Positions 6,449-10,514 of a DNA stretch of 10,531 nucleotides are shown piece after piece. Made by a program: the position numbers and the translations under genes. The stretch's first letter is position 1. Every line of letters starts with the position of its first letter. Origin of the DNA: an uncultured Prevotellaceae bacterium (GTDB taxonomy: Bacteria > Bacteroidota > Bacteroidia > Bacteroidales > Bacteroidaceae). The stretch is from assembly GCA_946405695.1 (NCBI GenBank), contig CAMJIA010000052.1, positions 1-10,531 on the forward strand, read 5' to 3'. The notes under the pieces are model-generated. The model made no database searches, was not told the DNA's origin, and saw only the letters and a program-made list of their open reading frames with translations.

Positions 6449-7513
6449 ATGGTAAAACTAGATTCACATGGCGAGGCACTGATGGCACAGTTTCGTGAAC
6501 TGCGCCCCACGCTGGACCAGCTGGCAAAAGAAGCCTTTGAACAGTTGAATAATGCGCTACAAGAGCAAGGCGTCTATGTTACCGCTATGGAGCATAGGGT
6601 AAAGACCGAAAAGTCGCTAGCAGGAAAACTGGAGCTGAAAGGCGCAAAATATAAGAGCATCGATGACATCACTGACCTCGTTGGCTTGCGTATTATTACC
6701 TTTTATACTGACGAGGTTGACAAGGTAGCAGCCATTGCCAAGCATATCTTTGACATTGACTGGGAAGAGAGTGTCGACAAGCGAAAGCACCAACTGACCT
6801 CCTTTGGTTACAACTCGTTACACTATATCTGTCGCCTGAAGACAGGTGGCCCGCGTTTCGAGCTACAGATGCGTACGGCACTGCAACACGTATGGTCTAC
6901 CATTGAACATGACATTGGCTACAAAAGTGAGGTGAAGATTCCACCTGAGTATCGTCGTCAGTTCAGTCGATTGGCAGGTATGTTGGAACTTATCGATGAT
7001 GAGTTCAGTCGTCTGCGTATGGTACTCACCGAGTATCACCGTCAGGTCTATTCGTTGGTGAAGAATGGTAAACTCGACGATGTACCCTTGGCGCCCGATA
7101 CGTTCCGGAGTTTCCTCGAATTGGAGCCTTTCGCTCGCCTGAACCGACGCATTGCTGTTGTCAATCAGGCTGAGATATATCCTGTTTCCATGATGCCCTT
7201 CTTACCTGTGCTCGAATCCTTCGGGCTGGAGACTCTTGGCGATGTGCAGCGTTTCTTGGACGACAATGCTGAAGATGCTATCCAGTTGGCTCTCTCGCAG
7301 TTGGCCGTTACCGATCTCGACATCCTTGCCTCTAGTGCAGCCTTGCAATACCTTTGTCTGGTCTATGTGCTGAAAAACGATGGTGGCCATCGTGGTCTGA
7401 AGGCTGTTTACGACATTATCAATGGTGTTGGCGATGCCAATAGTATGTTGGCTGATATGATGCTGGAACAAGCCAAGACACTACCGTTCATGCAGCGAAA
7501 AGAAACTGTGTAA
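6449..7513 (+). CDS. (p)ppGpp synthetase (RelA/SpoT synthetase domain) with long C-terminal extension
   Basis: The first ~160 of 354 residues form a RelA/SpoT-type synthetase domain, which transfers pyrophosphate from ATP to GDP or GTP to make the alarmone (p)ppGpp. Visible motifs are HRVKTEKSLAGKL (49-61, ATP-binding basic residues), DDITDLVGLRI (72-82, the catalytic-region Asp), FGYNSLHYI (119-127, the nucleotide-stacking Tyr and the His) and FELQMRTALQHVWSTIEHDIGYK (137-159, with Glu138, Gln140, Arg142 and the Trp and Glu-His pair). All key positions look intact. There is no HD hydrolase domain before it and no TGS/ACT regulatory region, so it is a stand-alone synthetase. The remainder (about 165-354) is mostly helical and I do not recognise it; typical small alarmone synthetases are only some 200-250 residues. 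It is last in the operon, which suggests that the upstream receptor and alarmone production are coordinated. The last base of its stop codon is part of the target duplication of the transposon behind it. Confidence 0.92.
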   Translation: MVKLDSHGEALMAQFRELRPTLDQLAKEAFEQLNNALQEQGVYVTAMEHRVKTEKSLAGKLELKGAKYKSIDDITDLVGLRIITFYTDEVDKVAAIAKHIFDIDWEESVDKRKHQLTSFGYNSLHYICRLKTGGPRFELQMRTALQHVWSTIEHDIGYKSEVKIPPEYRRQFSRLAGMLELIDDEFSRLRMVLTEYHRQVYSLVKNGKLDDVPLAPDTFRSFLELEPFARLNRRIAVVNQAEIYPVSMMPFLPVLESFGLETLGDVQRFLDDNAEDAIQLALSQLAVTDLDILASSAALQYLCLVYVLKNDGGHRGLKAVYDIINGVGDANSMLADMMLEQAKTLPFMQRKETV

Positions 7514-7520
7514 TAAAAAA
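7513..7520. repeat. 8-bp target site duplication, left copy
   Basis: ATAAAAAA directly precedes the left inverted repeat and is repeated exactly after the right one (10477-10484). Eight bases is the duplication length known for the IS1595 family. Its first base is the last base of the synthetase stop codon, so the insertion left that gene intact. Confidence 0.93.
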
Positions 7521-7545
7521 GGCAATAACATCGCAGTTGACCCAA
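7521..7545 (+). repeat. Left terminal inverted repeat (25 bp)
   Basis: It begins GGCAATAACATC and ends GTTGACCCAA. It is identical over 25 bases to the reverse complement of 10452-10476; the next base differs (C on the left, A on the right), which sets the inner edge. Confidence 0.96.
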
Positions 7546-7551
7546 CTTTTT

Positions 7552-7593
7552 AATAATTCCTTGGAATCCTTGTGATTCTGAGGAATTATTTTT
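7552..7593 (+). terminator. Strong hairpin terminator just inside the left end of the element
   Basis: AATAATTCCT (7552-7561) pairs perfectly with AGGAATTATT (7581-7590). Two G-U pairs and an inner GAATC/GATTC continue the stem, giving 17 paired positions around a 5-base loop, followed by TTT. Its place between the inverted repeat and the transposase gene suggests that it stops outside transcription from entering the element. It would also end the synthetase operon, whose own terminator was displaced. Confidence 0.75.
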
Positions 7594-7625
7594 GTATTTG
7601 TTTTTTACCGTATTCTTAGAATCAA

Positions 7626-7644
7626 CAATTTACTTTGTAAATTG
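7626..7644. repeat. Short perfect inverted repeat in transposase leader
   Basis: CAATTTAC and GTAAATTG flank TTT. It lies 110 bp before the transposase start in a 160-bp AT-rich leader (7594-7753) that otherwise holds three copies of TATTTG and no convincing -33/-7 promoter pair. It could be a transposase or regulator binding site or a small hairpin. Confidence 0.45.
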
Positions 7645-7693
7645 AAGCCTCAAATATCTTCAGTATTTGTACACTTATATGTATGAAAACCAG

Positions 7694-7751
7694 CACTTGG
7701 TACTTGTAAAAACCCATATTTGTATTAGAATTTAAATAAAAACCCCAAGTG
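7694..7751 (+). promoter_or_regulatory. Possible fold-back over the transposase start
   Basis: CACTTGG (7694-7700) is complementary to CCAAGTG (7745-7751), which ends two bases before the transposase ATG. If formed in the mRNA, this stem would close off the start region and could damp translation, as known in some other insertion sequences. The stem is only 7 bp around a 44-base loop, so it may be chance. Confidence 0.25.
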
Positions 7752-7753
7752 TT

Positions 7754-8728
7754 ATGATAGATTTCAAGAAGTTCAACAGCGTTATCTCACTCACCTCGTA
7801 TTTCACCTCTGACGAGAAGTGCAAGCAAGCCATCATCCAGTCACGTTGGTCTGACGGTGACGTTGTATGCCCCTACTGTGGTGGTCATCATTGTGTTGTA
7901 CGCAAGGATGGTAAGTTCCGTTGCAAGCACTGTGGCAAGAATTTCTCTTGCCTCGTTGGTACTATCTTCGAGAATACCAAACTCCCACTTATCAAGTGGT
8001 TCTTGGCTATGTACTTTATCTCTTCTCACAAGAAGGGTATCTCTTCATACCAACTTGCAAGGAACATTGAGGTGACGCAGAATACCGCTTGGTATATGCT
8101 TCAGAAGGTACGTCTTCTCTACCCTCAGACTGATGCTGAGTCATTTGAGGGTACTGTGGAGTGTGATGAGGTGTATATTGGTGGTAAGGAGAAATGGAAG
8201 CACAAGTCAATGCGTACACCCAATACACAAGGTCGTAGTACTAAGACTAAGACTCCAGTCTTTGGTATGATGGAGCGTAGCACCTTCATTAACAAGAAGG
8301 GTGAGGTTGAGCCTATTACTTACGTTCACGCTATTGTTGTGAAGAACACCAATAGAGCCACATTGCAGCCTATCATTCAGCAGTTTGTTGCTGAAGGTTC
8401 AAGAGTGATTACAGATGAACTCAGTGCCTATAATGGGCTTGCTACGTTGGGTTATACCCACGCTGTTGTTGCTCATGGTGCTGAAGAGTATGCCAATGGT
8501 GATGTATTCACCAATAGCATTGAGGGCTTTTGGAGTCATTTCAGACGTATGATTGTTGGCTGTTACCACGATGTGTCTGACGAGCATTTGCAGTCATATA
8601 TTGACGAGGCTGTGTATCGTTGGAACACAAGAAAAATGAGCGAATCGGAGAGATTCGCCCATATGTTCAATAAGTCCATTGGACTCATCGTTACTTGGAG
8701 CGAGTTAAGACTATGTAAGGCGGCTTAA
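7754..8728 (+). CDS. IS1595-family (ISXO2-like) DDE transposase
   Basis: The 324-residue product catalyses cut or copy of the surrounding element by binding its 25-bp ends. It has an N-terminal zinc ribbon of the IS1595 type (Cys39-x2-Cys42 in VCPYCGG, Cys57-x2-Cys60 in FRCKHCGK). A helical region follows (about 75-125, with KGISSYQLARNIEVTQNTAW, a helix-turn-helix-like stretch), and then the catalytic domain. The acidic triad is Asp138 in ECDEVYIGGKEKWKH, Asp221 in ITDELSAY, and Glu257 in FTNSIEGFWSHFRR; the first and last motifs are diagnostic for ISXO2-like proteins. The reading frame is unbroken and of usual length, so it is probably functional. The ATG at 7754 is the natural start; there is no Shine-Dalgarno sequence, as is normal in this phylum. 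Its stop is one base from the stop of the opposing 93-residue gene. Confidence 0.96.
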   Translation: MIDFKKFNSVISLTSYFTSDEKCKQAIIQSRWSDGDVVCPYCGGHHCVVRKDGKFRCKHCGKNFSCLVGTIFENTKLPLIKWFLAMYFISSHKKGISSYQLARNIEVTQNTAWYMLQKVRLLYPQTDAESFEGTVECDEVYIGGKEKWKHKSMRTPNTQGRSTKTKTPVFGMMERSTFINKKGEVEPITYVHAIVVKNTNRATLQPIIQQFVAEGSRVITDELSAYNGLATLGYTHAVVAHGAEEYANGDVFTNSIEGFWSHFRRMIVGCYHDVSDEHLQSYIDEAVYRWNTRKMSESERFAHMFNKSIGLIVTWSELRLCKAA

Positions 8729-8729
8729 A

Positions 8730-9011
8730 TTACAAAGATAAGTTATAATCTATTGTTTGCGGGTTTTTCATATATTCCAAATATGCTTTACAAGAATTAA
8801 TCCTATCCTTTAATTCTTGAGAAAGACTGTCATAATGTTGAGGGTTCATTGCTGATATAGATGCTACTGCGGTAATATCTGCGAACGACATTGGCCTACC
8901 ATCCGAATAAGTAGGGATTGGATTTACTTCTTCCTTTAATATTCTATTTACAGACTCCTTCACTATCTTATGAAGGTCTGATTCTGTTAATCTTATTAAT
9001 TTCTTATTCAT
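8730..9011 (-). CDS. Cargo ORF, 93 residues, with phage-like N-terminal LTESDLHKIVKESV motif
   Basis: This small protein begins MNKKLIRLTESDLHKIVKES and continues VNRILKEEV, an amphipathic helix of alternating basic and hydrophobic residues. From memory, close variants (RLTESDLxxIVxESVxxIL, ending NE or KE) recur at the N-terminus of many small, otherwise unrelated proteins of gut Bacteroidetes phages and mobile elements; I could not check this and do not know the motif's role. The rest (residues 34-93) includes FADITAVASISAMNPQHYDSLSQELKDRI, probably helical, with no recognised domain, signal peptide or membrane segment. It is encoded opposite to the transposase, with stops one base apart, and diverges from the two other cargo genes. 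No -7 box was found for it. The motif's conservation and the full open frame argue that it is real. Confidence 0.72.
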   Translation of the reverse strand: MNKKLIRLTESDLHKIVKESVNRILKEEVNPIPTYSDGRPMSFADITAVASISAMNPQHYDSLSQELKDRINSCKAYLEYMKNPQTIDYNLSL

Positions 9012-9021
9012 ATACGTATAT
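9010..9021. repeat. 12-bp palindrome overlapping the start of the 93-residue gene
   Basis: ATATACGTATAT is a perfect palindrome beginning inside the start codon of the minus-strand cargo gene and lying 27 bp from the -33 element of the opposite promoter. It could be an operator, but simple alternating AT sequence makes chance likely. Confidence 0.3.
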
Positions 9022-9047
9022 ATTTTCTAAATAAATATCACGTAGAA

Positions 9048-9079
9048 TTTGTTTTTCTCAGATATTTTATGTATCTTTG
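9048..9079 (+). promoter_or_regulatory. Bacteroidetes promoter for the cargo operon
   Basis: TTTG at 9048-9051 and TATCTTTG at 9072-9079 are separated by 20 bp, a match to the Bacteroidetes TTTG / TAnnTTTG promoter in both elements and in spacing. The ATG of the 80-residue gene is 42 bp downstream. The cargo therefore does not depend on transcription from the transposase. Confidence 0.8.
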
Positions 9080-9121
9080 CACAAATAAGGATATTTATTG
9101 TAGAATTAAAGTTTATAGGAT

Positions 9122-9364
9122 ATGGAATACTTAAAAGAAGATGGTAGTTTAGATATTGAAAGAATTAACAAACTACCAAGGGAAGAATATTTGAGGGAGA
9201 TTGGAAGATTCACAAGAGAGCAAATGAAAGAATATATATCCAAAACACCAATTAATGAGTCAAATAATTCCGTGACAATTACAAAGGTGGATTATAAGAT
9301 GGAAGACTTGTTAGCAAATGGGTGGGTTACAATTGATGACATATATAATATACTAATGAAATAA
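9122..9364 (+). CDS. Cargo ORF, 80 residues, unknown function
   Basis: I do not recognise this 80-residue protein. It is charged and probably helical in its first half (MEYLKEDGSLDIERINKLPR, then EEYLREIGRFTREQMKEYIS), followed by a polar linker (TPINESNNSV) and a short end, YKMEDLLANGWVTIDDIYNI. There is no signal peptide, membrane segment or cysteine. It has its own promoter just upstream and its stop is 6 bp before the ATG of the 347-residue gene, so the two are almost certainly co-transcribed. The small-then-large gene pair would fit an accessory or antidote protein with a larger effector, but nothing in the sequence proves that. Codon use is AT-rich like the rest of the cargo. Confidence 0.72.
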   Translation: MEYLKEDGSLDIERINKLPREEYLREIGRFTREQMKEYISKTPINESNNSVTITKVDYKMEDLLANGWVTIDDIYNILMK

Positions 9365-9370
9365 ATAGAA

Positions 9371-10414
9371 ATGGTTAAACAACACATACTAAACGAAGGT
9401 GACTTACCACCAAAGCTACCAGTAATATTTTCCGATGAAATTGCAGACAGAATACGAGATATTAGATTTTACAATCAGTTTGACAAAGAAGGACTATCAA
9501 GATTATTTTCCTACATCAAAGGTATAAAAAACCATATATCAAATCGTGCAATAGCATTTAGCTACGGAAGCGCAAGTTATTCCTATGGTGCATCTATTAT
9601 CTATGATTTTGGAGTTGGTTTTTGTCTTGAAGACGATTCAGAGAAAGTTTATGTTAAAGTCGTTTGGTTAGATTTAAACCTTGAAGACTTTGGCTTGAAT
9701 GAAAACAGACATATTGATAAAATCATAACTGAGGTTATTAATCAAAATACAACAAATGAATTTGTAAGTGTAAGCGAGTTTAAATATAAAGGAAAAGAAC
9801 TTTATAATGTTGGTGGTGGAGATTCTTTTGCCTATTTCCCATGCGACATATATGGTACACCAAAACTATATTATGGAGATTGCCATTATTCGTGCGCAGG
9901 TTCAGCTTGTGAAGATATATTGCACTCTTTTGGTAATTGTTCATATGATTGGTTTAACGACTATGAATTTGATTCTATAGTAGAAGAATTATGGCTTGAT
10001 TGTTGTTCAGAACGTGGAAGGGTATATTTTGAGAAATACATTGTAGTTGGAGAGGATGGTCATATACCTTCTTCTGAATATGTTTCAAAAGTTATAGAGT
10101 ATATGGGCGGTAGTCCAAAAGATTATTCTGTATTATATAACGAAAGTAATACAGTTAAAGAAATCTCTGCTGATTTGTTTTTAAAAAGTGGAATAAGTGG
10201 TAAGAAGAAACCTACAAAATTATCTGTACCTAAAAAACTTAAAGAAGTATATGAGAGAGTTGTCAACAGAAGGTATGCTGCTGATAGTAAGTTTCCAACT
10301 AACATGACAAGAGCAGAATATTATTGGTTAACAAGACAAGAAAGTAGAAAGATTAATAAAATAGTTATTGAAACAATTAATCAATACTTGAAACAGAACT
10401 TGATATTAAACTAA
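9371..10414 (+). CDS. Cargo ORF, 347 residues, unknown cysteine-rich protein
   Basis: This is the largest cargo gene and I do not recognise its family. The N-terminus MVKQHILNEGDLPPKLP has no signal peptide and no membrane helix is visible, so the protein is probably cytoplasmic. Residues about 60-105 (SYGSASYSYGASIIYDFGVG, then VYVKVVWLDL) look like beta strands. The middle carries most of the cysteines: 158, 171, 175, 180, 190, 211 and 212, including CHYSCAGSAC at 171-180, which might bind metal. It is also rich in aromatic and acidic residues (YDWFNDYEFD at 192-201). The last 75 residues turn basic and helical (GKKKPTKLSVPKKLKEVYER, then ESRKINKIVIETINQYLKQN), as in a nucleic-acid or partner-binding tail. 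The frame is open over its full length, it follows the 80-residue gene by 6 bp, and it ends at a good terminator. It is strongly AT-rich. Confidence 0.82.
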   Translation: MVKQHILNEGDLPPKLPVIFSDEIADRIRDIRFYNQFDKEGLSRLFSYIKGIKNHISNRAIAFSYGSASYSYGASIIYDFGVGFCLEDDSEKVYVKVVWLDLNLEDFGLNENRHIDKIITEVINQNTTNEFVSVSEFKYKGKELYNVGGGDSFAYFPCDIYGTPKLYYGDCHYSCAGSACEDILHSFGNCSYDWFNDYEFDSIVEELWLDCCSERGRVYFEKYIVVGEDGHIPSSEYVSKVIEYMGGSPKDYSVLYNESNTVKEISADLFLKSGISGKKKPTKLSVPKKLKEVYERVVNRRYAADSKFPTNMTRAEYYWLTRQESRKINKIVIETINQYLKQNLILN

Positions 10415-10444
10415 ATGAGCAACCGTAATTGGCTGCTCATTTTT
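10413..10444 (+). terminator. Intrinsic terminator of the cargo operon
   Basis: AAATGAGCA (10413-10421) pairs with TGCTCATTT (10434-10442). CC/GG continues the stem after one mismatch, and a T run ends it. It overlaps the last bases of the 347-residue gene's stop codon and lies 8 bp inside the right terminal repeat, so the cargo transcript ends within the element. Confidence 0.82.
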
Positions 10445-10451
10445 AAGATAT

Positions 10452-10476
10452 TTGGGTCAACTGCGATGTTATTGCC
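10452..10476 (-). repeat. Right terminal inverted repeat (25 bp)
   Basis: Read on the plus strand it starts TTGGGTCAAC and ends GTTATTGCC. It is the exact reverse complement of 7521-7545. Confidence 0.96.
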
Positions 10477-10484
10477 ATAAAAAA
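10477..10484. repeat. 8-bp target site duplication, right copy
   Basis: ATAAAAAA, identical to 7513-7520. It runs directly into the A-tract of the old operon terminator, showing that the target was the start of that terminator. Confidence 0.93.
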
Positions 10485-10514
10485 ACACCGCACGCAATTG
10501 CGTACGGTGTTTTT
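10481..10514 (+). terminator. Displaced intrinsic terminator of the carboxyltransferase-synthetase operon
   Basis: AAAAACACCG pairs with CGGTGTTTTT. A C/A mismatch and an inner ACGC/GCGT around AATT complete a long stem with A and T tracts on both sides, so it may work in both directions. Joining 7520 to 10485 restores the stop codon followed within about 10 bp by this hairpin, which shows that it belonged to the synthetase operon before the insertion. The last 17 bases of the window are AT-rich with no feature seen. Confidence 0.88.

Follow-up and report, generated by a model that had tools for sequence, protein, structure and literature searches.

Phage satellites such as phage-inducible chromosomal islands (PICI) and PICI-like elements (PLE) are host mobile elements that exploit phage particles. 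On the side of the phages, the T4 internal proteins IPI, IPII, IPIII and Alt are described as carriers of a capsid targeting sequence that is cut by gp21 (PMC9026906, PMC3012670), and the cut is given as falling after L/I-X-E, with N-terminal propeptides of 7 to 65 residues being removed (PMC9026906). Here, we describe a transposon of the IS1595 family in a stretch of 10,531 nt (the window in the following) from an uncultured Prevotellaceae bacterium (GCA_946405695.1, contig CAMJIA010000052.1). Sequence comparison supports the view that this transposon trades phage-type head-protein cassettes and occurs both in Bacteroidales and in T4-headed phages.

Results

Related elements share a leader

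A transposase scan with one genome per species yielded 52 loci, and among all loci collected, 31 elements, the window included, combine paired ends with an exact 8-bp target duplication, which is more than chance would give. These relatives lie in Bacteroidales genomes and in viral contigs. A complete cargo-carrying element and several insertion sites, both considered in the initial annotation, are thereby supported. We examined 33 elements, namely the 31 together with L019 and L020, which have paired ends and duplications that do not match; L022, with one mismatch in the duplication and four in the ends, was left out. Cargo varies between the elements, which rules out the conserved set of three cargo genes that had been considered at first: other genes are found both in L002 and in the phage-borne element of L218, two elements in which one end matches that of the window exactly. 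The recurrent features are instead a phage-type leader, two types of upstream box and a divergent arrangement of the genes.

The leader comprises about 27 residues (..RLTESDLHxIVKESVNxIL[NK]E) and is conserved at the N-terminus of proteins that are not otherwise related, although it is internal in many cargo proteins. It is encoded by 25 of the 33 elements and by 24 of the 25 with a transposase identity of at least 69% (21 of 22 without the window and L082 and L121, which were found by their leader). The lone exception, L002, encodes a cargo protein with weak, below-cut-off matches to Lcl_C and Fib_succ_major and a 42% identical relative in a viral contig, and one of the eight more distant elements (L032) has a leader. 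Relatives in viral loci outside these elements were found for 15 of 97 cargo modules. A second scan of viral contigs, by transposase and thus independent of the leader, gave 12 loci: a leader ORF (open reading frame) stands beside the transposase or its remnant in seven by pattern and in an eighth (L235) by eye, L239 and L240 retain about 27-30 residues of a transposase next to phage leader genes, and L233 and L236 have no leader.

Short transposase fragments near phage leader genes (L239:6001-6090, L240:4756-4836, also in L100, L089 and L143) are possible scars of cargo capture. Further observations concern i) L184:991-2076, which without a transposase has paired ends, the duplication AAAATTTT and a leader gene inside, similar to a miniature inverted-repeat transposable element, ii) the viral stretch L066 with a transposon-like end followed by an apparently decayed partner gene, and iii) cargo genes at L039:7815-8672 and L042:7059-7472, for which a phosphoribosyltransferase domain and DUF4160 were matched weakly and below the cut-off.

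The leader in phages and bacteria

The DNA pattern of the leader matched 103 stretches of viral contigs, eight of which also contain transposase sequence. With the leader profile, all 30 viral records searched (62-413 kb in length) gave 2-21 matches each; these records had been picked by leader (27), by a relative of ORF3 of the window cargo (L054 and L055) or by the transposon end (L001). Judged from this distribution, the leader is a phage module that is native to large T4-headed phages. A link to phages, which the initial annotation had raised as one possibility (phage interference), is supported.

Among 23 bacterial genomes chosen by transposase, 20 contain a total of 25 leader matches. 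Of these matches, 21 are located inside paired-end elements (coordinates compared by hand), three lie beside a transposase or remnant without paired ends (L026, L031, L052) and one (L223) belongs to a transposase-free stretch, where an L004-like cargo pair was recognised by eye. A sample of 200 genomes from the genus to which Prevotella sp. MA2016 belongs contained the leader in 16 cases (E up to 1e-6) and the transposase in 17 (E up to 1e-30), with both in eight; transposase sequence occurs within the approximately 3 kb fetched at just 10 of the 27 leader loci, four times as a short fragment. The same genus sample includes the 286,648-bp contig G124:C1 with four leader genes (L190, L195, L198, L199), probably a large phage binned with a host genome. 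When the 40 N-terminal residues of the window leader protein were used as a query against proteins, the search returned 1065 clusters of one size range at E up to 1, the best 120 of which have E values up to 6.2e-6. By tblastn, the leader gave one match in phage records at E 9 and a second variant none, which does not imply absence with such short queries.

The leader ends like a prohead protease site

For 204 leaders with distinct downstream parts, selected by a profile of the first 21 columns only, the information content is 2.7 bits at the final Glu and then drops to 0.64, 0.46 and 0.39. The pattern [ILVMF]xE is found at the leader end in 191 of 204 cases, compared to 19 of 204 for either of two control windows downstream, which overlap; the leader of the window ends with LKE. 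At the sequence level, this is the same pattern as that of the T4 propeptide cut.

The S77 family, which is that of the T4 prohead protease, scores above its cut-off in 15 of the 30 viral records and in none of 14 control genomes, and a near-full-length major capsid protein is present in exactly these 15 (in G024 as two pieces). Because the capsid protein matches of the remaining 15 records are at most partial, these may be fragments lacking the head module. An identical search that was positive in the viral records detected no S77 match in the 23 element-bearing bacterial genomes, a negative result that taken alone is no proof of absence. In 14 of 14 capsid proteins, [LI]xE precedes the conserved core (site picked by eye), with the first ~60 residues ending in LIYE, LLKE, LISE or LLNE. 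At least 24 of the leaders listed lie within 5 kb of S77, whereas 8.2 were expected from the full numbers (P about 6e-6); they come from 11 of the 15 records, while four records have none among the leaders listed and single records are mostly not significant alone. PHROGs matches around S77 in G001 include the major head protein, the head maturation protease, the portal and the large terminase (TerL), those near S77 in G013 a tail sheath, and leader genes are interspersed among the head genes of G001, G013 and G026.

The leader could alternatively be a mobile docking helix for another phage or host factor, with the final E being part of the helix. This would accommodate the leaders or leader-like segments at internal and C-terminal positions and the absence of an S77 score over the cut-off in half of the 30 records. 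However, conservation ends exactly at the T4-type prohead protease motif, the capsid proteins bear this very motif, and leaders lie near S77, which itself coincides with the capsid protein, beyond expectation; a docking function is in our view unlikely.

At the DNA level, the window cargo resembles the phage loci mainly around the leader and closely upstream of it, and recombination at the leader DNA is therefore likely. As the sole cause of leader conservation, a recombination signal was rejected, since it fails to explain protein conservation that ends at Glu. In several phage records, open frames of 203-225 residues contain all or part of the ~89 residues at the start of the major capsid protein (G013:C1:39468-39794, G009:C1:368983-369312, with similar frames in G006, G015, G021, G025 and G026), as if the capsid propeptide had been reused on another head protein. 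In two phages, homing/HNH endonuclease genes are found near the capsid gene (L158:1680-3356, L171:6970-7914; phrog_3339, phrog_559).

Exchange of cassettes and selection on the cargo

Exact duplications at different sites argue for movement of the element. The viral record G001 (TerL, portal, capsid protein, S77) carries a 1607-bp element (in L218) that is flanked by an exact duplication and has an internally shortened transposase and leader cargo; one of its ends matches the 25 bp of the window perfectly. The same cargo recurs with 89% identical DNA in L224 (G124:C71), a contig of the genus sample whose genes look bacterial by eye, although its genome also holds the phage-like contig G124:C1. 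Between both copies, the ratio of non-synonymous to synonymous substitution rates (dN/dS) of the cargo is 0.026 over 151 codons, and a value of 0.058 was obtained for the cargo of L027 and L039, two copies from bacterial metagenome-assembled genomes. In this second pair, the transposases have diverged to a dS of 0.79 compared to 0.065 for the adjacent leader cargo, and the other cargo genes are unrelated. In this one case, the leader cassette was exchanged between old backbones.

The variation of the cargo by element, the transposase fragments beside phage leader genes and a cargo gene split in one phage copy might be expected if the cargo were inert and consisted of phage DNA picked up at random. 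Nevertheless, the low dN/dS values of both pairs that were compared (0.026 and 0.058) and the recurrence of the same divergent layout and of paired families in bacterial and viral copies speak against mere passengers, an explanation we consider very improbable.

Upstream boxes on the two cargo strands

The box (T)GATATTTAT was first seen upstream of leader genes. In an independent set of non-leader head-region genes, it precedes 91 of 200 genes with up to one mismatch, whereas 18 cases are seen on the opposite strand and shuffled sequences give 16.3. The core motif TATTTAT is located before 119 of 226 phage head-region genes (reverse 35, shuffle 23.4). Within the cargo, it precedes 25 of 34 genes antisense to the transposase, i.e. 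on the leader side, and 10 of 34 on the transposase strand; frequencies elsewhere are 4/207 for bacterial flanking genes, 1/31 for transposase genes and, for non-leader genes, 3/47 in L054 and L055 and 5/29 in three other viral stretches. The host -7 box TAnnTTTG was found before 22 of 34 same-strand and 1 of 34 antisense cargo genes, 55 of 207 bacterial genes and 17 of 31 transposases; the statistical tests of these frequencies treat genes as independent, although records and elements are related. The counts include the L082, L121 and L218 elements among the cargo genes and leave out L034, L046, L048 and L050, which have no recognised transposase ORF, as well as cargo ORFs below 48 aa. Because the box also precedes genes starting with another domain, it is not merely a companion of the leader; in L005, L006, L013 and L015, for example, the core box lies before such a gene and the leader is internal.

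In the window, both cargo directions have an exact phage box, and ORF2 additionally has a host match, which we take to be the Bacteroidetes -33/-7 promoter pattern. A terminator-like hairpin lies inside the unit. That the cargo has its own regulation, as the initial annotation had stated, is supported.

The numerous leader genes in viral records also suit an element whose home is the phage, with a cargo serving counter-defence like T4 IPI and with bacterial copies as spill-over. The T-even internal proteins are likewise diverse with the targeting sequence alone conserved (PMC3012670). This explanation, which has the packaging step in common with the one we prefer, is possible but on the unlikely side: the host-type promoter boxes before partner genes and the purifying selection on the bacterial cargo of L027/L039 suggest a role in uninfected bacteria, too.

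The window transposon and its partner genes

The transposon extends from 7521 to 10476, and its length of 2956 bp, perfect 25-bp inverted repeats, perfect 8-bp duplication ATAAAAAA and intact transposase are all as originally described (Table 1). The transposase scores 196.5 bits with NF033547 (IS1595; cut-off 75), 152.4 with PF12762 and 41.2 with PF12760, and the zinc ribbon, the ISXO2-like domain, the paired inverted ends and the 8-bp duplication are those of the family. The G+C content of the cargo (0.305) is well below that of the transposase (0.445), confirming the difference noted before, and that of the left flank is 0.50. Genes to the left of the element look chromosomal (SpoIIE phosphatase, carboxylase domain). 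A stronger hairpin at 10481-10514 starts in the right duplication outside the unit and is probably the displaced terminator of the RelA/SpoT-domain gene.

Table 1. Coordinates of the features of the transposon and its cargo in the window
Feature	Position	Strand	Remark
Target duplication, left copy ATAAAAAA	7513..7520	.	Starts on the final stop-codon base of the RelA/SpoT-domain gene
Left terminal inverted repeat	7521..7545	+	Identical 25 bp at one element end in viral contig L001/L218
IS1595-family (ISXO2-like) transposase, 324 aa, intact	7754..8728	+	Profile matches above cut-offs
Leader gene, 93 aa: phage-type leader and 66-residue tail without known family	8730..9011	-	
27-residue leader MNKKLIRLTESDLHKIVKESVNRILKE, coding part; its end is the predicted L-x-E site	8931..9011	-	
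Phage-type box GATATTTAT, 28 nt ahead of the leader gene ATG	9031..9039	-	
Host-type promoter match TTTG-N20-TATCTTTG, ahead of ORF2/ORF3	9048..9079	+	
Phage-type box GATATTTAT, 32 nt ahead of ORF2	9090..9098	+	
ORF2, 80 aa, small first operon gene	9122..9364	+	53% identical relative in L003; no family match
ORF3, 347 aa: N-terminal domain, then core domain, two leader-like segments	9371..10414	+	
Leader-like repeat 1 in ORF3	9701..9745	+	Repeat D1, 71%
Leader-like repeat 2, near the ORF3 C-terminus	10340..10384	+	Repeat D1, 71%
Terminator-like hairpin with T run after ORF3, inside the unit	10413..10442	+	Inverted repeat and sequence
Right terminal inverted repeat	10452..10476	-	Repeat pairing
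Target duplication, right copy	10477..10484	.	Sequence match

The closest similar cargo set is that of L003, with 53% identity for ORF2 and 37% for the N-terminal part of ORF3; the related ORFs are intact there, so that the window genes are neither absent nor broken in all other copies. The core domain of ORF3 also occurs without the N-terminal domain in the viral contigs L054 and L055. Searches with the three cargo proteins gave nothing convincing in PHROGs, PADLOC, NCBIfam and Pfam (weak rows, best E 0.0036), with no match at E up to 1 in the PADLOC 2023 library of anti-phage defence families, and ORF3 had no tblastn match among 72,556 plasmid and 50,697 phage records. For ten cargo or phage proteins each, scans against Pfam and PHROGs returned weak matches only. 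The three ORFs did not prove to be already described passengers; ISfinder was outside the comparison, so a named element with these passengers may exist. The direct structure model of ORF3 was poor (predicted local distance difference test, pLDDT, 60.5) with weak Foldseek matches, while a relative of the N-terminal domain gave a usable model, whose fold was compared by VIA-align, where families missing from the list are not thereby excluded. A RelE/ParE-like fold is possible for the N-terminal domain. ORF2 occupies the position of an antitoxin, which would hint at its function, and the operon looks like a toxin-antitoxin or effector-immunity arrangement.

ORF2 and ORF3 might act by toxin-antitoxin addiction or abortive infection, keeping the element in the host or stopping phage growth inside the infected cell with nothing carried in virions. 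However, this would leave the leader genes and the phage box unexplained, many elements have other partners instead of the ORF2/ORF3 pair, and Foldseek alone gives an E of 0.13. Hence, we regard addiction or abortive infection by itself as unlikely.

Discussion

A proposed mechanism

The explanation that we prefer, and hold to be rather probable, is a transposon moving between bacteria and phages, the leader protein of which is made during infection, loaded and cut, beside a partner expressed by the host. The group of elements would live in Bacteroidales genomes and in large T4-headed phages, the hosts of which are presumably the same bacteria, with phage-type head proteins as exchangeable parts. 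Upon phage infection, the minus-strand leader gene would be read from a phage-type, probably late, promoter. The leader would then act as a T4 capsid-targeting propeptide by which the protein is taken into the prohead, the phage S77 protease would cut after [I/L]-x-E, and the mature tail would ride in the virion and enter the next cell by ejection. In uninfected cells, a host promoter would drive the gene or genes on the plus strand, which would provide the partner; in the window, this partner is an operon of two genes, the second of which encodes a protein with a possibly RelE/ParE-like toxin fold at its start. We infer the phage host as well as packaging, cleavage, promoter activity and delivery, and the benefit might fall to the bacterium, the phage or only the element.

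Two observations slightly lower our confidence in this explanation and in the bolder extension given below. In the phage copy L218, the leader and cargo module is split into two ORFs. Moreover, since TATTTAT also precedes 253 of 715 non-leader genes of the loci found by leader (reverse 114, shuffle 58.8), its sequence context marks it as a phage-type box and not strictly as a head-gene box.

The evidence is best accounted for by a leader that directs the protein into the head. It would be bolder to assume a protective effect of the partner on the host and a virion-delivered effector system formed by the pair, in which phage late transcription brings the leader protein into heads and thereby into the next cell and the constitutive partner protects cells that hold the element; we consider this extension doubtful. 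If it were true, the phage would be a delivery vehicle for the protein of a bacterial transposon, used as kin defence or as a weapon.

The mechanism, if true, joins simple transposons, diverse T4-like internal head proteins and toxin-partner pairs, which are usually studied apart. The leader would be a readable tag for many candidate virion-carried proteins of Bacteroidales phages, and with a transposon found in bacteria and phages as their carrier, the acquisition and exchange of such proteins become testable. A literature search with most subscription papers outside its reach turned up no paper on capsid-targeted transposon cargo, and words beginning with "transpos-" are absent from the main text both of a huge gut phage preprint (PMC12363816) and of a bS21 phage paper (PMC9723584).

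Comparison with known systems

The transposase family, the paired ends, the 8-bp duplication and the presence of passengers are common to the window unit and to IS1595 elements with passenger genes, presumably the subgroup named ISPna2/ISXO2-like. In contrast to these, the passengers described here have a phage-type leader and an upstream box, and relatives are also found in viral contigs. The window operon resembles RelE/ParE modules in the order of a small first and a toxin-like second gene and may do so in the fold of the ORF3 N-terminal domain, but there is no sequence family match, a core domain and leader-like segments are added, and the antitoxin is not recognised. Like phage satellites (PICI, PLE), the transposon would be a host-resident mobile element that uses phage particles; unlike them, it is a single-transposase element of 1.5-4 kb for which packaging of its own DNA is not suggested.

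The T4 internal proteins are similar in the short conserved N-terminal segment on diverse small proteins, the L/I-X-E end and, for the 15 of 30 viral records with S77 above its cut-off, the prohead protease in the same phage. They differ in that the leader of the present system has about 27 instead of about 10 residues, also occurs in internal copies and is transposon-encoded in bacterial genomes. N-terminal signals or propeptides linked to head loading are likewise described for DarB of phage P1, with its capsid signal, and for the ejection proteins of SPN3US (PMC9024508, PMC5694885); these proteins are encoded by the phages and, unlike the leader cargo described here, are not borne by a transposon.

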